This document shows positions 2,934 to 7,155 of a DNA stretch of 64,000 nucleotides, in pieces. The position numbers were made by a program, and so were the translations under genes. How positions within the stretch are numbered: the first letter of the stretch is position 1; the number at the start of each line of letters is the position of its first letter. The stretch is from Actinomycetota bacterium (GTDB lineage Bacteria; Actinomycetota; Actinomycetes; Nanopelagicales; Nanopelagicaceae): NCBI GenBank assembly GCA_016870365.1, contig VGBW01000003.1, positions 1-64,000 of the forward strand. Reading direction: 5' to 3'. The notes below the pieces were generated by a model. It did not search any database, was not told the origin of the DNA, and saw nothing but the letters and a program-made list of their open reading frames with translations.

Positions 2934-3686
2934 CTACTTATCCAACTTTCTAGAGCTAAGAATCGAGACAAGATGCCCAGCGGTCACAAATGCCGCTAAA
3001 GGGAGTCCGATTCGAATTAAGTTCTCATCGCCGGCAAAAAACAATATTAAGATTGACATTTCTACCGAGTGAAAGAGGCGTTGCACAGCAAAGATTCGAA
3101 ATGGAGCACGCGCGACTCGGATGACTAGTGACTTTGGTTCGCCTACCATTTTGCTATCTGCAAGCTTTGGAAGGCTCGCATATGACCGGGCTACATGCAC
3201 CGCGTCGTTGAATCCCTTATTGAGAAGAATTAGTACTGAGATTAGAGCGCCTAGGAAGAGCAATTCATGATCGCCTTCTCCAATCCGCCAGGCAAGAGCG
3301 ATTGGGATCAAGCTCTCGGTTAAGTAATGCCCGACGCGGTCTAGGAAGACGCCCTTAGGTGATTGGGTGTCTTGCCAACGAGCTATCTCGCCATCGCAAC
3401 AATCCCAGAGCATCTGTAGTTGCGATAGAAGAAAAGCCAGGAAAAGCCCGAGAAATCCGGGGATTTGAAGGGCAGCGCTCATAGAGACTCCGGTAGCAAT
3501 CATTAAGTAAGTAACGCCATTTGCTGTTATCGGCGTCTTTAGCAACAGGCGTGTTAGATATGGCGAGAGTTTTCGAAGATATAGATCTGCTACCCAATGC
3601 TCGGCACTGGAGCGACCGGTGACTGAGGGAGGCTGACAGACCGCGCGCAACTCAGCGATAGCCGGCTTTGCGGGGCGCTGACTCAC
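2934..3686 (-). CDS. CDP-alcohol phosphatidyltransferase family protein (last motif Asp is His)
   Basis: 250 aa integral membrane enzyme of the family that displaces CMP from a CDP-alcohol to form a phosphodiester lipid or polyol phosphate. The family motif D-x2-DG-x2-AR-x8-G-x3-D-x3-D is present as D95, D98-G99, A102-R103, G112 and D116, but the final position is His120 (sequence LDRVGHYL). That Asp is the usual catalytic base. Several hydrophobic spans surround the motif. It overlaps the next CDP-alcohol transferase gene upstream by 4 bp. The His may mark a divergent subfamily with another acceptor, or an inactive partner of the 546-aa enzyme; I cannot decide. Confidence 0.85.
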   Translation of the reverse strand: MSQRPAKPAIAELRAVCQPPSVTGRSSAEHWVADLYLRKLSPYLTRLLLKTPITANGVTYLMIATGVSMSAALQIPGFLGLFLAFLLSQLQMLWDCCDGEIARWQDTQSPKGVFLDRVGHYLTESLIPIALAWRIGEGDHELLFLGALISVLILLNKGFNDAVHVARSYASLPKLADSKMVGEPKSLVIRVARAPFRIFAVQRLFHSVEMSILILFFAGDENLIRIGLPLAAFVTAGHLVSILSSRKLDK

Positions 3687-5323
3687 TCGCTAATTCTATT
3701 CTGCTTATGTCCGATAACCCATTGAAAAGATGAGAGCGCGAGGAAGATGACCGCAAAGTACCAGGCAATGAGGGTGATATCCACGCCCGTTAAGAGAGCA
3801 GCACCAATAAGCAAGATTCGCCCACCAAGATAGAAACCCAACGCGTTCAACCAAGTTGGTTTCTTCTCGTCCTGAAGGGCGCGATAGAGATTGTCATAGT
3901 GATGGAAGATGATGCTAAAAAGAATGATAAAGCTTGGGACTCCTAATACATCTTGGTGGACGAAGATGGCGATAAGAATAAGCGCTTCGATTAAGCGGAG
4001 TATGGATGGTTCAATCCAGCTAATTCTCCTTGTGAAGCTCGCCTTGATTCCTAACAAATCTGATTGATTCACAATCAAGGAGCTATTAAGAGGGTTCCTC
4101 TCCATCTCCTTGGTGCGAATTGCTCTTCCTCGGAAAACCACAACAGCCGATATGAAAGCAAGTGTCGGCATAATGGTAAATGTGAGAGCAGCGCCACCAA
4201 CAACTGCGCTCGCGCTAATCACTAGCCAACGCTCACCGATAGGGAATTGGATTATCTTTCCTAACCAATAACGGAGCCTTCCCCTTGGGCCACGCTCAGT
4301 TGGGATGATCCCATCGAATTCGGCCATGAAATCAACTGGAGTCGCGAACTTCTCTTCTGTTCGAACCTTCATGCTCTGGGCAAAGTTGTAATCCGATAGA
4401 TGCCTACAGGCCTGGATAGCCATCATCGCCATCGCGGGAATCCATAAGTCTCTACCTTCGAGCGATGCGCCATAAGCAAGACCTAAGAAGACAAGATACT
4501 CCTTAACTCGATCAGTTACCGCATCTAACCAAGCACCCAGCTTGGAGAACTTCCGGGTATATCGCGCTAACTCGCCATCCACACAATCAACGATGATGCT
4601 TAATTGCAACAAGAAGGCTCCGAGAAGTACCGATAAGAATGTGCCGCGTGAGAATGAATATGCAGAATAGAGACCAATTGCAAAAGAGAGAAGCGTGACT
4701 TGGTTCGGAGTTGCACCGACCTTTACAGCCGCCCAAGTCAGAATCTTGGAGAATTTGCGGAGAAAGAAGACTGAGAAGAAACCATCATTGGCTCGATTCG
4801 CAATCTTTAATCGCAGGGTTGCGATATTTAGCCCATTTATCTCGCTCTTAACTCGCTCACGCTCACGCGGATCATCGCTTCGTGACCATGGTGCACTTAA
4901 TACATCTACAGCATCTACTTTGATTGTTCCGCGAACTAGCGCAACTAATAGAAGATCTAGCGCATTTCCTTTTGCTCTAAAAGCGATTGCGTTCTCAAGG
5001 GCCGGGATGATTGTTTCTCTCTGTTTCTGGGAAAGTCGAAGTCCGCCAACAAAGTCCCGATTTCCAATAGTCACTTTATGTGAGGCTGAACTTGCACTTG
5101 CGATGCGACTTTGACGAACTAAGGTGTTTCCATTCTTGACAATCGCAACAAGCGCTGCAGAACTACTTCGCGGGTAATCTGTAAGTAACTCTAGATGTGG
5201 ATCCGTGATTACCGTCCGCTCATCGAACAATAGAAGATCTCTTGTTGAGTTTTGAAAGATATCAAGTATTTCTGAAAGAGAGGTCCTTGCGGTGACAGAC
5301 AAAGAATCAAGTGCGACGCTCAT
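3683..5323 (-). CDS. CDP-alcohol phosphatidyltransferase with N- and C-terminal extensions (DUF5941-like tail)
   Basis: 546 aa, three parts. Residues 1-180 are soluble and unassigned, with the look of a degenerate nucleotidyltransferase-like domain. Residues about 185-360 hold the full CDP-alcohol transferase motif (D246, D249-G250, A253-R254, D267, D271) in a polytopic domain. Residues about 430-540 are a second membrane domain with HHYDNLYRAL, as in the actinobacterial DUF5941 tail. It probably makes a phosphodiester-linked lipid or polyol, using the CDP-substrate that the divergent nucleotidyltransferase would make. The ATG at 5323 is preceded by TATACT with 7 nt between, so translation is probably leaderless. 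Only 18 bp separate it from the divergent neighbour. Confidence 0.85.
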   Translation of the reverse strand: MSVALDSLSVTARTSLSEILDIFQNSTRDLLLFDERTVITDPHLELLTDYPRSSSAALVAIVKNGNTLVRQSRIASASSASHKVTIGNRDFVGGLRLSQKQRETIIPALENAIAFRAKGNALDLLLVALVRGTIKVDAVDVLSAPWSRSDDPRERERVKSEINGLNIATLRLKIANRANDGFFSVFFLRKFSKILTWAAVKVGATPNQVTLLSFAIGLYSAYSFSRGTFLSVLLGAFLLQLSIIVDCVDGELARYTRKFSKLGAWLDAVTDRVKEYLVFLGLAYGASLEGRDLWIPAMAMMAIQACRHLSDYNFAQSMKVRTEEKFATPVDFMAEFDGIIPTERGPRGRLRYWLGKIIQFPIGERWLVISASAVVGGAALTFTIMPTLAFISAVVVFRGRAIRTKEMERNPLNSSLIVNQSDLLGIKASFTRRISWIEPSILRLIEALILIAIFVHQDVLGVPSFIILFSIIFHHYDNLYRALQDEKKPTWLNALGFYLGGRILLIGAALLTGVDITLIAWYFAVIFLALSSFQWVIGHKQNRISE

Positions 5324-5341
5324 TTAGAGTAGTATAAATCT
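5324..5341. promoter_or_regulatory. Overlapping divergent leaderless promoters
   Basis: The 18 bp between two divergent start codons contain both -10 hexamers. Plus strand: TAGTAT at 5330-5335, then 6 nt, then ATG at 5342. Minus strand: TATACT (5336 down to 5331), then 7 nt, then ATG at 5323. The hexamers share 5 bp, so the two polymerases cannot be bound at once, and neither transcript has room for a Shine-Dalgarno. The spacing is what is known for actinobacterial leaderless mRNAs; activity is inferred. Confidence 0.65.
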
Positions 5342-6037
5342 ATGGCCCTCCAAGTTGTGATTCTTGCTGCTGGAATAGGCACCCGTCTTGGAAAACCTTG
5401 GCCAAAACCACTCACTCCACTTGCAGATGGCCGTTCGATCATACAGCAACAATTGGATAATGTTGAGAAGGTCTTTAGGAATGAAGCTCGCGTGACAATC
5501 GTGGTCGGGTTCAAGATGGAGATGATCATGGAGGCTCATCCGAATGCTTGCTTCATCTATAACGAGGTTTATGACCAGACGAACACCTCAAAGAGTCTTC
5601 TTAAGGCTCTTCGCGCATCACATGAAAGCGGAGTTCTATGGTTAAACGGTGATGTGGTATTTGATTCAAGAGTGCTAGATCGTGTGCAATCTCTCATGCG
5701 TGAGGAAAAGTCCTTTATTTGTGTAAATACCTCAGCAACGTCCGAGGAAGAAATCAAGTACACAGTAGATGCCGATGGAAATATTAATTCCTTGTCAAAA
5801 CAAGTTAAGAATGCTTTAGGTGAGGCGGTGGGGATTAATTTCATTAGTAAGTATGACAAAACTGCGGCAATAACCTACCTAGAAGAGTGCGCAGATAATG
5901 ACTACTTTGAACGCGGCCTTGAATTGGCTATAGAAAAAGCTGGCATGAAACTGGAGCCAGTCGATATTTCTGATCTGTTCGCCATCGAAGTTGATTTTCA
6001 GGCTGATCTAAAGAGAGCAAATGAGGGACTAGCTTAA
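5342..6037 (+). CDS. Sugar/polyol-phosphate nucleotidyltransferase (MobA-like NTP transferase)
   Basis: 231 aa. It carries the nucleotidyltransferase signature at residues 5-27: VILAAGIGTRLGKPWPKPLT, with the conserved G-x-G-T-R and the PKPL lysine, and WLNGDVVF as the metal-binding Asp. The family joins an NTP to a sugar- or polyol-phosphate. Because it sits back to back with a CDP-alcohol phosphatidyltransferase, a cytidylyltransferase role (for example CTP:inositol- or glycerol-phosphate) is an attractive inference, but the sequence alone does not show the nucleotide. Its end overlaps the convergent sulfotransferase-like gene by 4 bp. The start at 5342 has no SD but an ideal leaderless -10. 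Confidence 0.8.
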   Translation: MALQVVILAAGIGTRLGKPWPKPLTPLADGRSIIQQQLDNVEKVFRNEARVTIVVGFKMEMIMEAHPNACFIYNEVYDQTNTSKSLLKALRASHESGVLWLNGDVVFDSRVLDRVQSLMREEKSFICVNTSATSEEEIKYTVDADGNINSLSKQVKNALGEAVGINFISKYDKTAAITYLEECADNDYFERGLELAIEKAGMKLEPVDISDLFAIEVDFQADLKRANEGLA

Positions 6038-7155
6038 ATCTGCTTACGGATTCGCAGAGCTTGCGTACCCAATTTTCTCCTGTAGCGCTTAATTAGGTTT
6101 TTCCTAATCCAACTTAATGGCAGCCTCTTGACCAGATTCTTGTCAAAACCAAGCATCCCTTGAGCAATATGGCTTATCGAGATCTCGGTGGGATAAACAG
6201 GCTCTCCCTCTGGCACTGATGCCGATCCTAGGCTCTCGATATCGCCAATGATGATTGCCCCGGTAGCTATGAGTTCCCTCTTGTTTTGGGAGCCAATCTC
6301 ATTCCCCTTATCTATTGCCCATTTCGGGGTTAGCAACTTTCTAGAATCACTTGGAGCCTTAACATTGTCTGTTAGATGCCCTATATACCCGTTTCTTATG
6401 AATACTTCATACTCATTCCAATTTCTATCTTTAGGAAATTCTCTATTTAACTCCAGAAGTAAGGCTATTTCCTCAAGATTTAATGAGCGATTACTACCTG
6501 ATTCTTGAGGTCTTATGAAACCTTGGGGTAGCCCTAAGTATTGATTAACCGAGTCATAGAGGAACTCTGGCTTTGATTCATCAACAATAAGTACCGTCAC
6601 ATTGCCAGCTCCCAAGACTTCTACCCACTTGGCAACGACCTTTCCAGAAAAGTGTCTATTCCAGAATGTTGGGTTGATCTTTGATTCACCTGGTTTATCA
6701 AGAACCGAGTGAAGCCAGGTTACATAGTCTGCGGTTATCCCATATTTCAAATATTGTTGATAAGAGGAGCCGAGTAGCTTGACTAAAGGCCTCAAAGTAA
6801 AGAGGGCCTCAATCTTTCTTCCTTTAATTACGTCAAAAATAGTGAGGATCTGTTCTCTATCTAGTTCGGAGAAGAACTCGCTGCTAAGCAAGATGTTCTC
6901 TGCTTTATTTGAATTGATTGCCTTTGCTAGGCGAGTCCACTCCTTTCGTGAAGTCTTCTCACCCCCTTTCTTATCCCACCCCCAAGTTCCTCCAGAGAGC
7001 GCCCAGGCGATGCGGTGATGTGCTTTTCTTCCTATATTCGGATAGATGATCCCGCTTTGCCTTAATTCATCGTGTTGCGAATCAAATGACTCCTGTAGAG
7101 CGCTAGTCCCAGACTTATGGAATCCAGCATGAATGAACAAACGAGGCTGACTCAT
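6034..7155 (-). CDS. Sulfotransferase-like P-loop protein
   Basis: 373 aa. The N-terminus FIHAGFHKSGTSALQ is the 5'-phosphosulfate P-loop of sulfotransferases (G-x-x-K-S/T-G-T/S). Downstream, LLSSEFFSEL and FTLRPLVKLLGSSYQQYLK match the region that binds the 3'-phosphate of PAPS (R...S). The C-terminal 100 residues are basic (KRYRRKLGTQALRIRKQ). It may modify a surface sugar or lipid made by the neighbouring cluster; the acceptor is unknown and some family members have no proven activity. It is a single gene on the minus strand, with a 57-bp gap to the next gene. Visibly AT-rich. Confidence 0.7.
   Translation of the reverse strand: MSQPRLFIHAGFHKSGTSALQESFDSQHDELRQSGIIYPNIGRKAHHRIAWALSGGTWGWDKKGGEKTSRKEWTRLAKAINSNKAENILLSSEFFSELDREQILTIFDVIKGRKIEALFTLRPLVKLLGSSYQQYLKYGITADYVTWLHSVLDKPGESKINPTFWNRHFSGKVVAKWVEVLGAGNVTVLIVDESKPEFLYDSVNQYLGLPQGFIRPQESGSNRSLNLEEIALLLELNREFPKDRNWNEYEVFIRNGYIGHLTDNVKAPSDSRKLLTPKWAIDKGNEIGSQNKRELIATGAIIIGDIESLGSASVPEGEPVYPTEISISHIAQGMLGFDKNLVKRLPLSWIRKNLIKRYRRKLGTQALRIRKQI

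Follow-up and report, generated by a model that had tools for sequence, protein, structure and literature searches.

A conserved 18-bp spacer between divergent phosphotransferase and nucleotidyltransferase genes in a Nanopelagicaceae genus: a probable double-leaderless bidirectional promoter

Within the 64,000-nucleotide stretch analysed here (the window; contig VGBW01000003.1, assembly GCA_016870365.1, positions 1 to 64,000), a CDP-alcohol phosphotransferase gene and a nucleotidyltransferase gene point away from each other across only 18 bp. We consider it probable (roughly 0.75) that these 18 bp are a bidirectional housekeeping-sigma (sigma-A) promoter cut to its core, giving rise to two leaderless mRNAs and to joint low-level expression. 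A single pseudo-symmetric -10, TAGTATA, would be read as TAGTAT toward the nucleotidyltransferase and as TATACT toward the phosphotransferase; each transcript would begin at, or within one base of, its start codon, and because both mRNAs would be leaderless, a Shine-Dalgarno site would be unneeded. Polymerase would sit in one orientation at a time, and at ordinary low occupancy both pathway genes would be produced side by side from the one element. The transcription starts, the leaderless translation and the co-expression of the pair are what we infer from sequence, and it is the conservation of the shared element that suggests transcription from it in both directions.

The first-pass annotation had described an 18-bp gap holding both -10 hexamers, overlapping by 5 bp and lying 6 and 7 nt from the two starts, and this description is exact at 5324-5341 (Table 1). 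The flanking genes form a divergent ATG/ATG pair starting at 5323 (minus) and 5342 (plus), and the hexamers overlap at 5331-5335. An in-frame TAG at 5330-5332, within the forward -10, makes a longer start for the plus gene impossible. No Shine-Dalgarno core of at least four bases was found upstream of either start, and no convincing -35 element was seen by eye in either direction when spacings of 16-18 bp were considered. For an 18-mer drawn at random with the base composition of the genome's spacers, the chance of carrying TAnnnT in a leaderless register on both sides is ~0.01. The reverse -10 lies one base outside the commonest register, and the minus-gene transcript could start at 5324 with a one-base leader; the predicted spacing of the divergent start sites is 18 bp for a minus start at 5324 or 19 bp for one at 5323. 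Further promoters within the neighbouring genes are possible, given how degenerate TAnnnT is.

Table 1. Coordinates in the window of the candidate promoter elements and the genes around them.
Feature	Position	Strand	Details
Intergenic region, predicted whole promoter core for both genes	5324..5341		18 bp, TTAGAGTAGTATAAATCT
Predicted forward -10 hexamer TAGTAT	5330..5335	+	6 nt to plus-gene ATG; matches genome-wide leaderless matrix T-12 A-11 nnn T-7
Predicted reverse -10 hexamer TATACT	5331..5336	-	7 nt to minus-gene ATG; register -13, the second genome-wide peak
Pseudo-palindromic shared core TAGTATA (TAnnnTA)	5330..5336		Holds both hexamers, which overlap by 5 bp
Invariant 12-mer TAGTATAAATCT	5330..5341		Alignment of 15 genus spacers
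CDP-alcohol phosphotransferase (PF01066); also has DUF5941 and, at the N-terminus, a nucleotidyltransferase-like domain without the catalytic signature	3683..5323	-	PF01066 above cut-off
MobA/IPCT-like nucleotidyltransferase, LAAGxGTR signature intact	5342..6037	+	Family search, motif
Second CDP-alcohol phosphotransferase	2934..3686	-	4-bp overlap with end of first; likely same operon

Both hexamers fall in registers that recur throughout the genome (1.29 Mb, 96% complete). In the 1.17 Mb analysed, a mixture model returned the leaderless signal T-12 A-11 nnn T-7 with a weight of ~30% of genes; with gene starts from a home-made caller that chose them without promoter information, TAnnnT begins at -12 in 127 of 1111 genes and at -13 in 67, most other offsets giving ~10-15. 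Both genes of the pair have TAnnnT 6-7 nt before their start codon, as in actinobacterial leaderless genes. In M. tuberculosis, where ~22-26% of genes are leaderless, -10-only TANNNT promoters occur without a conserved -35 (Cortes et al. 2013, PMC3898074), and the present element resembles them in this and in that its transcripts are predicted to begin at the start codon. The same study calls "closely juxtaposed divergent promoters" common in that species, and prpD and its divergent regulator are both leaderless (PMC3898074); unlike the pair described here, however, prpD/Rv1129c have starts (1254630 and 1254510) ~120 bp apart and -10s that do not overlap. In the literature we found no paper joining Nanopelagicales and leaderless.

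Comparative evidence supports a functional element. The orthologous pair was compared in 15 genomes of the genus, the window's genome included: the spacer is exactly 18 bp long in all 15, and 14 of its 18 columns are invariant, 12 of them contiguous, the 15 spacers comprising only three distinct sequences. In the same comparison, only 1 of 143 fourfold-degenerate columns of the two flanking genes was invariant, with a mean pairwise identity at such sites of 36-42%; the invariance of the spacer against saturated fourfold sites argues for strong purifying selection on it. The invariant stretch extends past the forward -10 through AAATCT (5336-5341, forward -6 to -1), which is also mostly outside the reverse -10; of these six bases only the first A is needed by the reverse hexamer. 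The other five might serve as a discriminator for the forward promoter, make spacer contacts for the reverse one or belong to a regulator site. One could envision TAGTATAAATCT as the binding site of a transcription factor that covers the shared -10 and in this way represses the two genes together, and the asymmetry of the conservation, with four of the six bases on the side opposite AAATCT varying among the genus spacers, is what such an operator might leave. However, the 12-mer is present as a single copy in the 1.17 Mb examined, there is no clear palindrome outside the TAnnnTA core, and the flanking bases differ in other genera, so we regard co-repression from this site as unlikely.

The annotation had paired a CDP-alcohol transferase with the enzyme that likely makes its substrate, and this, with the substrate understood as an activated one, is supported by PF01066, an intact signature, an IPCT/DIPPS model and Foldseek. 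The motif DxxDGxxARx8GxxxDxxxD of the minus gene is present in 16 of 16 relatives, and the best Foldseek match of its predicted structure (mean pLDDT 81.5) is the bifunctional IPCT-DIPPS enzyme of A. fulgidus. A single Thermococcales model of the bifunctional IPCT/DIPPS enzyme (NF041135) matches the plus protein over positions 2-216 and the minus protein over 223-345, with scores (79 and 32 bits) far below its curated cut-off of 580 bits. The two enzymes thus look like successive pathway steps, nucleotide activation by a cytidylyltransferase followed by a CDP-alcohol phosphotransferase, and are probably linked by a substrate. Inositol phosphate is a possible substrate; the genome encodes an inositol-1-phosphate synthase homologue and also a PEP-mutase-superfamily protein. 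As in IPCT-DIPPS (A. fulgidus 4mnd; NCBIfam NF041135), a cytidylyltransferase and a CDP-alcohol phosphotransferase are linked, but here they are two divergent genes, and the phosphotransferase adds DUF5941 and a signature-less nucleotidyltransferase-like N-terminal fold.

This N-terminal domain (~170 residues; window 4808-5323, minus strand) has a predicted cytidylyltransferase-like fold and is missing in two loci of one genus (L084, L085). Residues 1-170 of the model align with inositol-1-phosphate cytidylyltransferase 4jd0 (Z 11.4, 158 residues, 3.9 A), and the LAAGxGTR signature is absent. No sequence match to the domain was found among solved structures, and profile-profile comparison with the plus nucleotidyltransferase gave an hhalign probability of 6%; it is the predicted fold that suggests its tie to nucleotidyltransferases. 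Downstream of the phosphotransferase, genes on the minus strand between 750 and 3686 have overlapping or abutting ends and likely form an operon, with the second CDP-alcohol transferase, a membrane protein that matches no Pfam family, a family-2 glycosyltransferase and a GDPD-like gene. On the other side, a convergent gene (6034-7155, minus strand), which shares 4 bp with the nucleotidyltransferase gene where their stops overlap, encodes a 373-aa protein without Pfam match, its N-terminus sulfotransferase-like by eye.

The spacer had also been proposed to act as a built-in switch, in which polymerase bound one way would shut out the opposite direction and the cell would express either the phosphotransferase or the nucleotidyltransferase. 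With 5 bp common to the two hexamers, simultaneous binding is sterically impossible, and at some E. coli bidirectional promoters the activators of one direction do repress the other (PMC12825309). Nevertheless, at five of five E. coli bidirectional promoters tested, the basal activity was too weak for the two directions to compete, repression requiring strong activation of the other side (PMC12825309). Neither an input for switching nor bistable feedback can be seen at the present locus, and the core persists in other genera where the forward gene is leadered separately or has given way to another gene. Two enzymes of one pathway should be required at the same time, and the similarly close pairs of this genome include one that we read as glycerol kinase/glycerol-3-phosphate dehydrogenase. 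Enzymes that look consecutive in one pathway, together with so little basal competition at the published promoters, make joint expression likelier than a switch, and we consider the latter improbable.

The element otherwise bears a close resemblance to the bidirectional promoters that Warman, Grainger and colleagues described in prokaryotes, E. coli and Salmonella among them. The criterion there is divergent start sites 7-25 bp apart, and spacings of 18 and 23 bp between opposite-strand starts have been reported, 18 being the commonest (PMC12825309, PMC10268837). Overlapping, pseudo-symmetric -10s on opposite strands are present here as TAGTATA (5330-5336), and opposite-strand starts ~18 bp apart are predicted. 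In contrast to those promoters, the starts here would coincide with start codons and the core would be the entire intergenic region; the evidence is comparative in our case and comes from mapping of transcription start sites in theirs. The 18-bp element would thus be a deeply conserved and apparently double-leaderless case of Warman-type bidirectional promoters, unusual in that its core fills the whole intergenic region.

Outside the genus, the distance of the core from the phosphotransferase start is constant, and that of the forward gene varies. In a second genus (loci L091, L092, L104) the spacer is also 18 bp, with GTG/GTG starts and the core TACTATA. In two further genera (L069-L082) the gap is 61-65 bp; TAATCTA is the core there and stays beside the phosphotransferase start, the nucleotidyltransferase beginning ~44-47 nt further off behind a purine-rich, Shine-Dalgarno-like stretch (e.g., GAAGGTAGAG). 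In two more (L084-L088) a gene of ~412 aa intervenes, and the phosphotransferase start is followed by N6-TACTCTA. Overall, start codon-N6-TAnnnTA is found at the phosphotransferase start in 32 of 32 loci and in five more with a different divergent gene, that is, in 37 of 37 loci spanning several genera, although related lineages among them are not independent samples. Genome-wide, the A that completes TAnnnTA follows only about one quarter of leaderless -10s, and by this comparison the symmetry looks maintained. Among the Micrococcales relatives examined, we did not find the two genes directly next to each other. We infer that the bidirectional core is old and tied to the phosphotransferase start, and that the forward gene is probably leaderless or leadered according to lineage. 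The constancy of N6-TAnnnTA at the phosphotransferase start in every lineage, as compared to a forward distance that varies (18 bp, 61-65 bp or another gene), might instead mean that the reverse promoter alone is used, that the forward gene is served from inside the phosphotransferase gene and that a single strong -10 produced the symmetry incidentally, but this is very improbable, since both lineages with an 18-bp gap have the forward -10 in the genome's commonest leaderless register with no Shine-Dalgarno evident, and no bases are better conserved in the genus than the forward core half and discriminator.

The bidirectional arrangement we favor for this pair appears to have counterparts elsewhere in the genome. 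Of 139 divergent pairs counted, 19 have a gap of 10-30 bp, and 10 of these 19 carry TAnnnT in a leaderless register on both sides, as compared to 0 of 19 in four control registers. When register -14 is included, twelve pairs result and fall into three overlap classes, with a 5-bp overlap (gaps of 17, 18, 18 and 19 bp), a 2-bp overlap (22, 23, 23 and 24 bp) and an overlap of 0/-1 bp (25-27 bp). These classes are the arrangements that TA...T symmetry allows, and if transcripts begin at start codons, the first two would match the reported 18- and 23-bp spacings. No special genome-wide peak at exactly 18 bp is claimed: three to four pairs, by start caller, have this gap, and 38 bp, for example, has four. 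The earlier view of the spacer as a back-to-back leaderless promoter survives as probable, given its geometry, its conservation in 15 genomes and the genome-wide register. The spacer is not unique, with about a dozen such pairs in the genome.

Several of the other close pairs lie outside the window. An 18-bp divergent spacer, CTCTGCTTGGATACGCGC (C12:2604-2621, L286), recurs in 18 genomes of the genus, each copy with three mismatches or fewer, between genes that, from their sequence, we take to be trmB and pepN. Additional back-to-back pairs with gaps of 17-19 bp and shared TAnnnTA cores are located at C7:54577-54595, C1:135181-135197 and C11:850-867; their genes, again as read from sequence, are presumably glpK/glpD (which we take to encode glycerol kinase and glycerol-3-phosphate dehydrogenase), leucyl aminopeptidase/gcvT and a SIMPL-like protein/tsaC-like gene, respectively. 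One could tentatively envision that streamlining in this Nanopelagicaceae genus brought some dozen divergent pairs each under a double-leaderless bidirectional promoter, that promoter geometry sets the spacing (~17-19, 22-24 and 25-27 bp) and that the partners in each pair are kept under obligatory common control; we regard this as possible rather than likely. In another genus of the family (G024), the leaderless register at -12 is equally strong and close pairs (10-30 bp) are rare (3 of 94 divergent pairs); very close divergent pairs are not a family-wide class.

If the 18-bp spacer is indeed such a promoter, it would represent a minimal limit of gene regulation, in which one promoter core is all the space between two genes and has long been kept in evolution. 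Where the transcription start is tied to the start codon, gene spacing itself would become a fingerprint of bidirectional promoters, and these could then be predicted by genome sequence alone in the abundant, mostly uncultured actinobacteria of fresh water.
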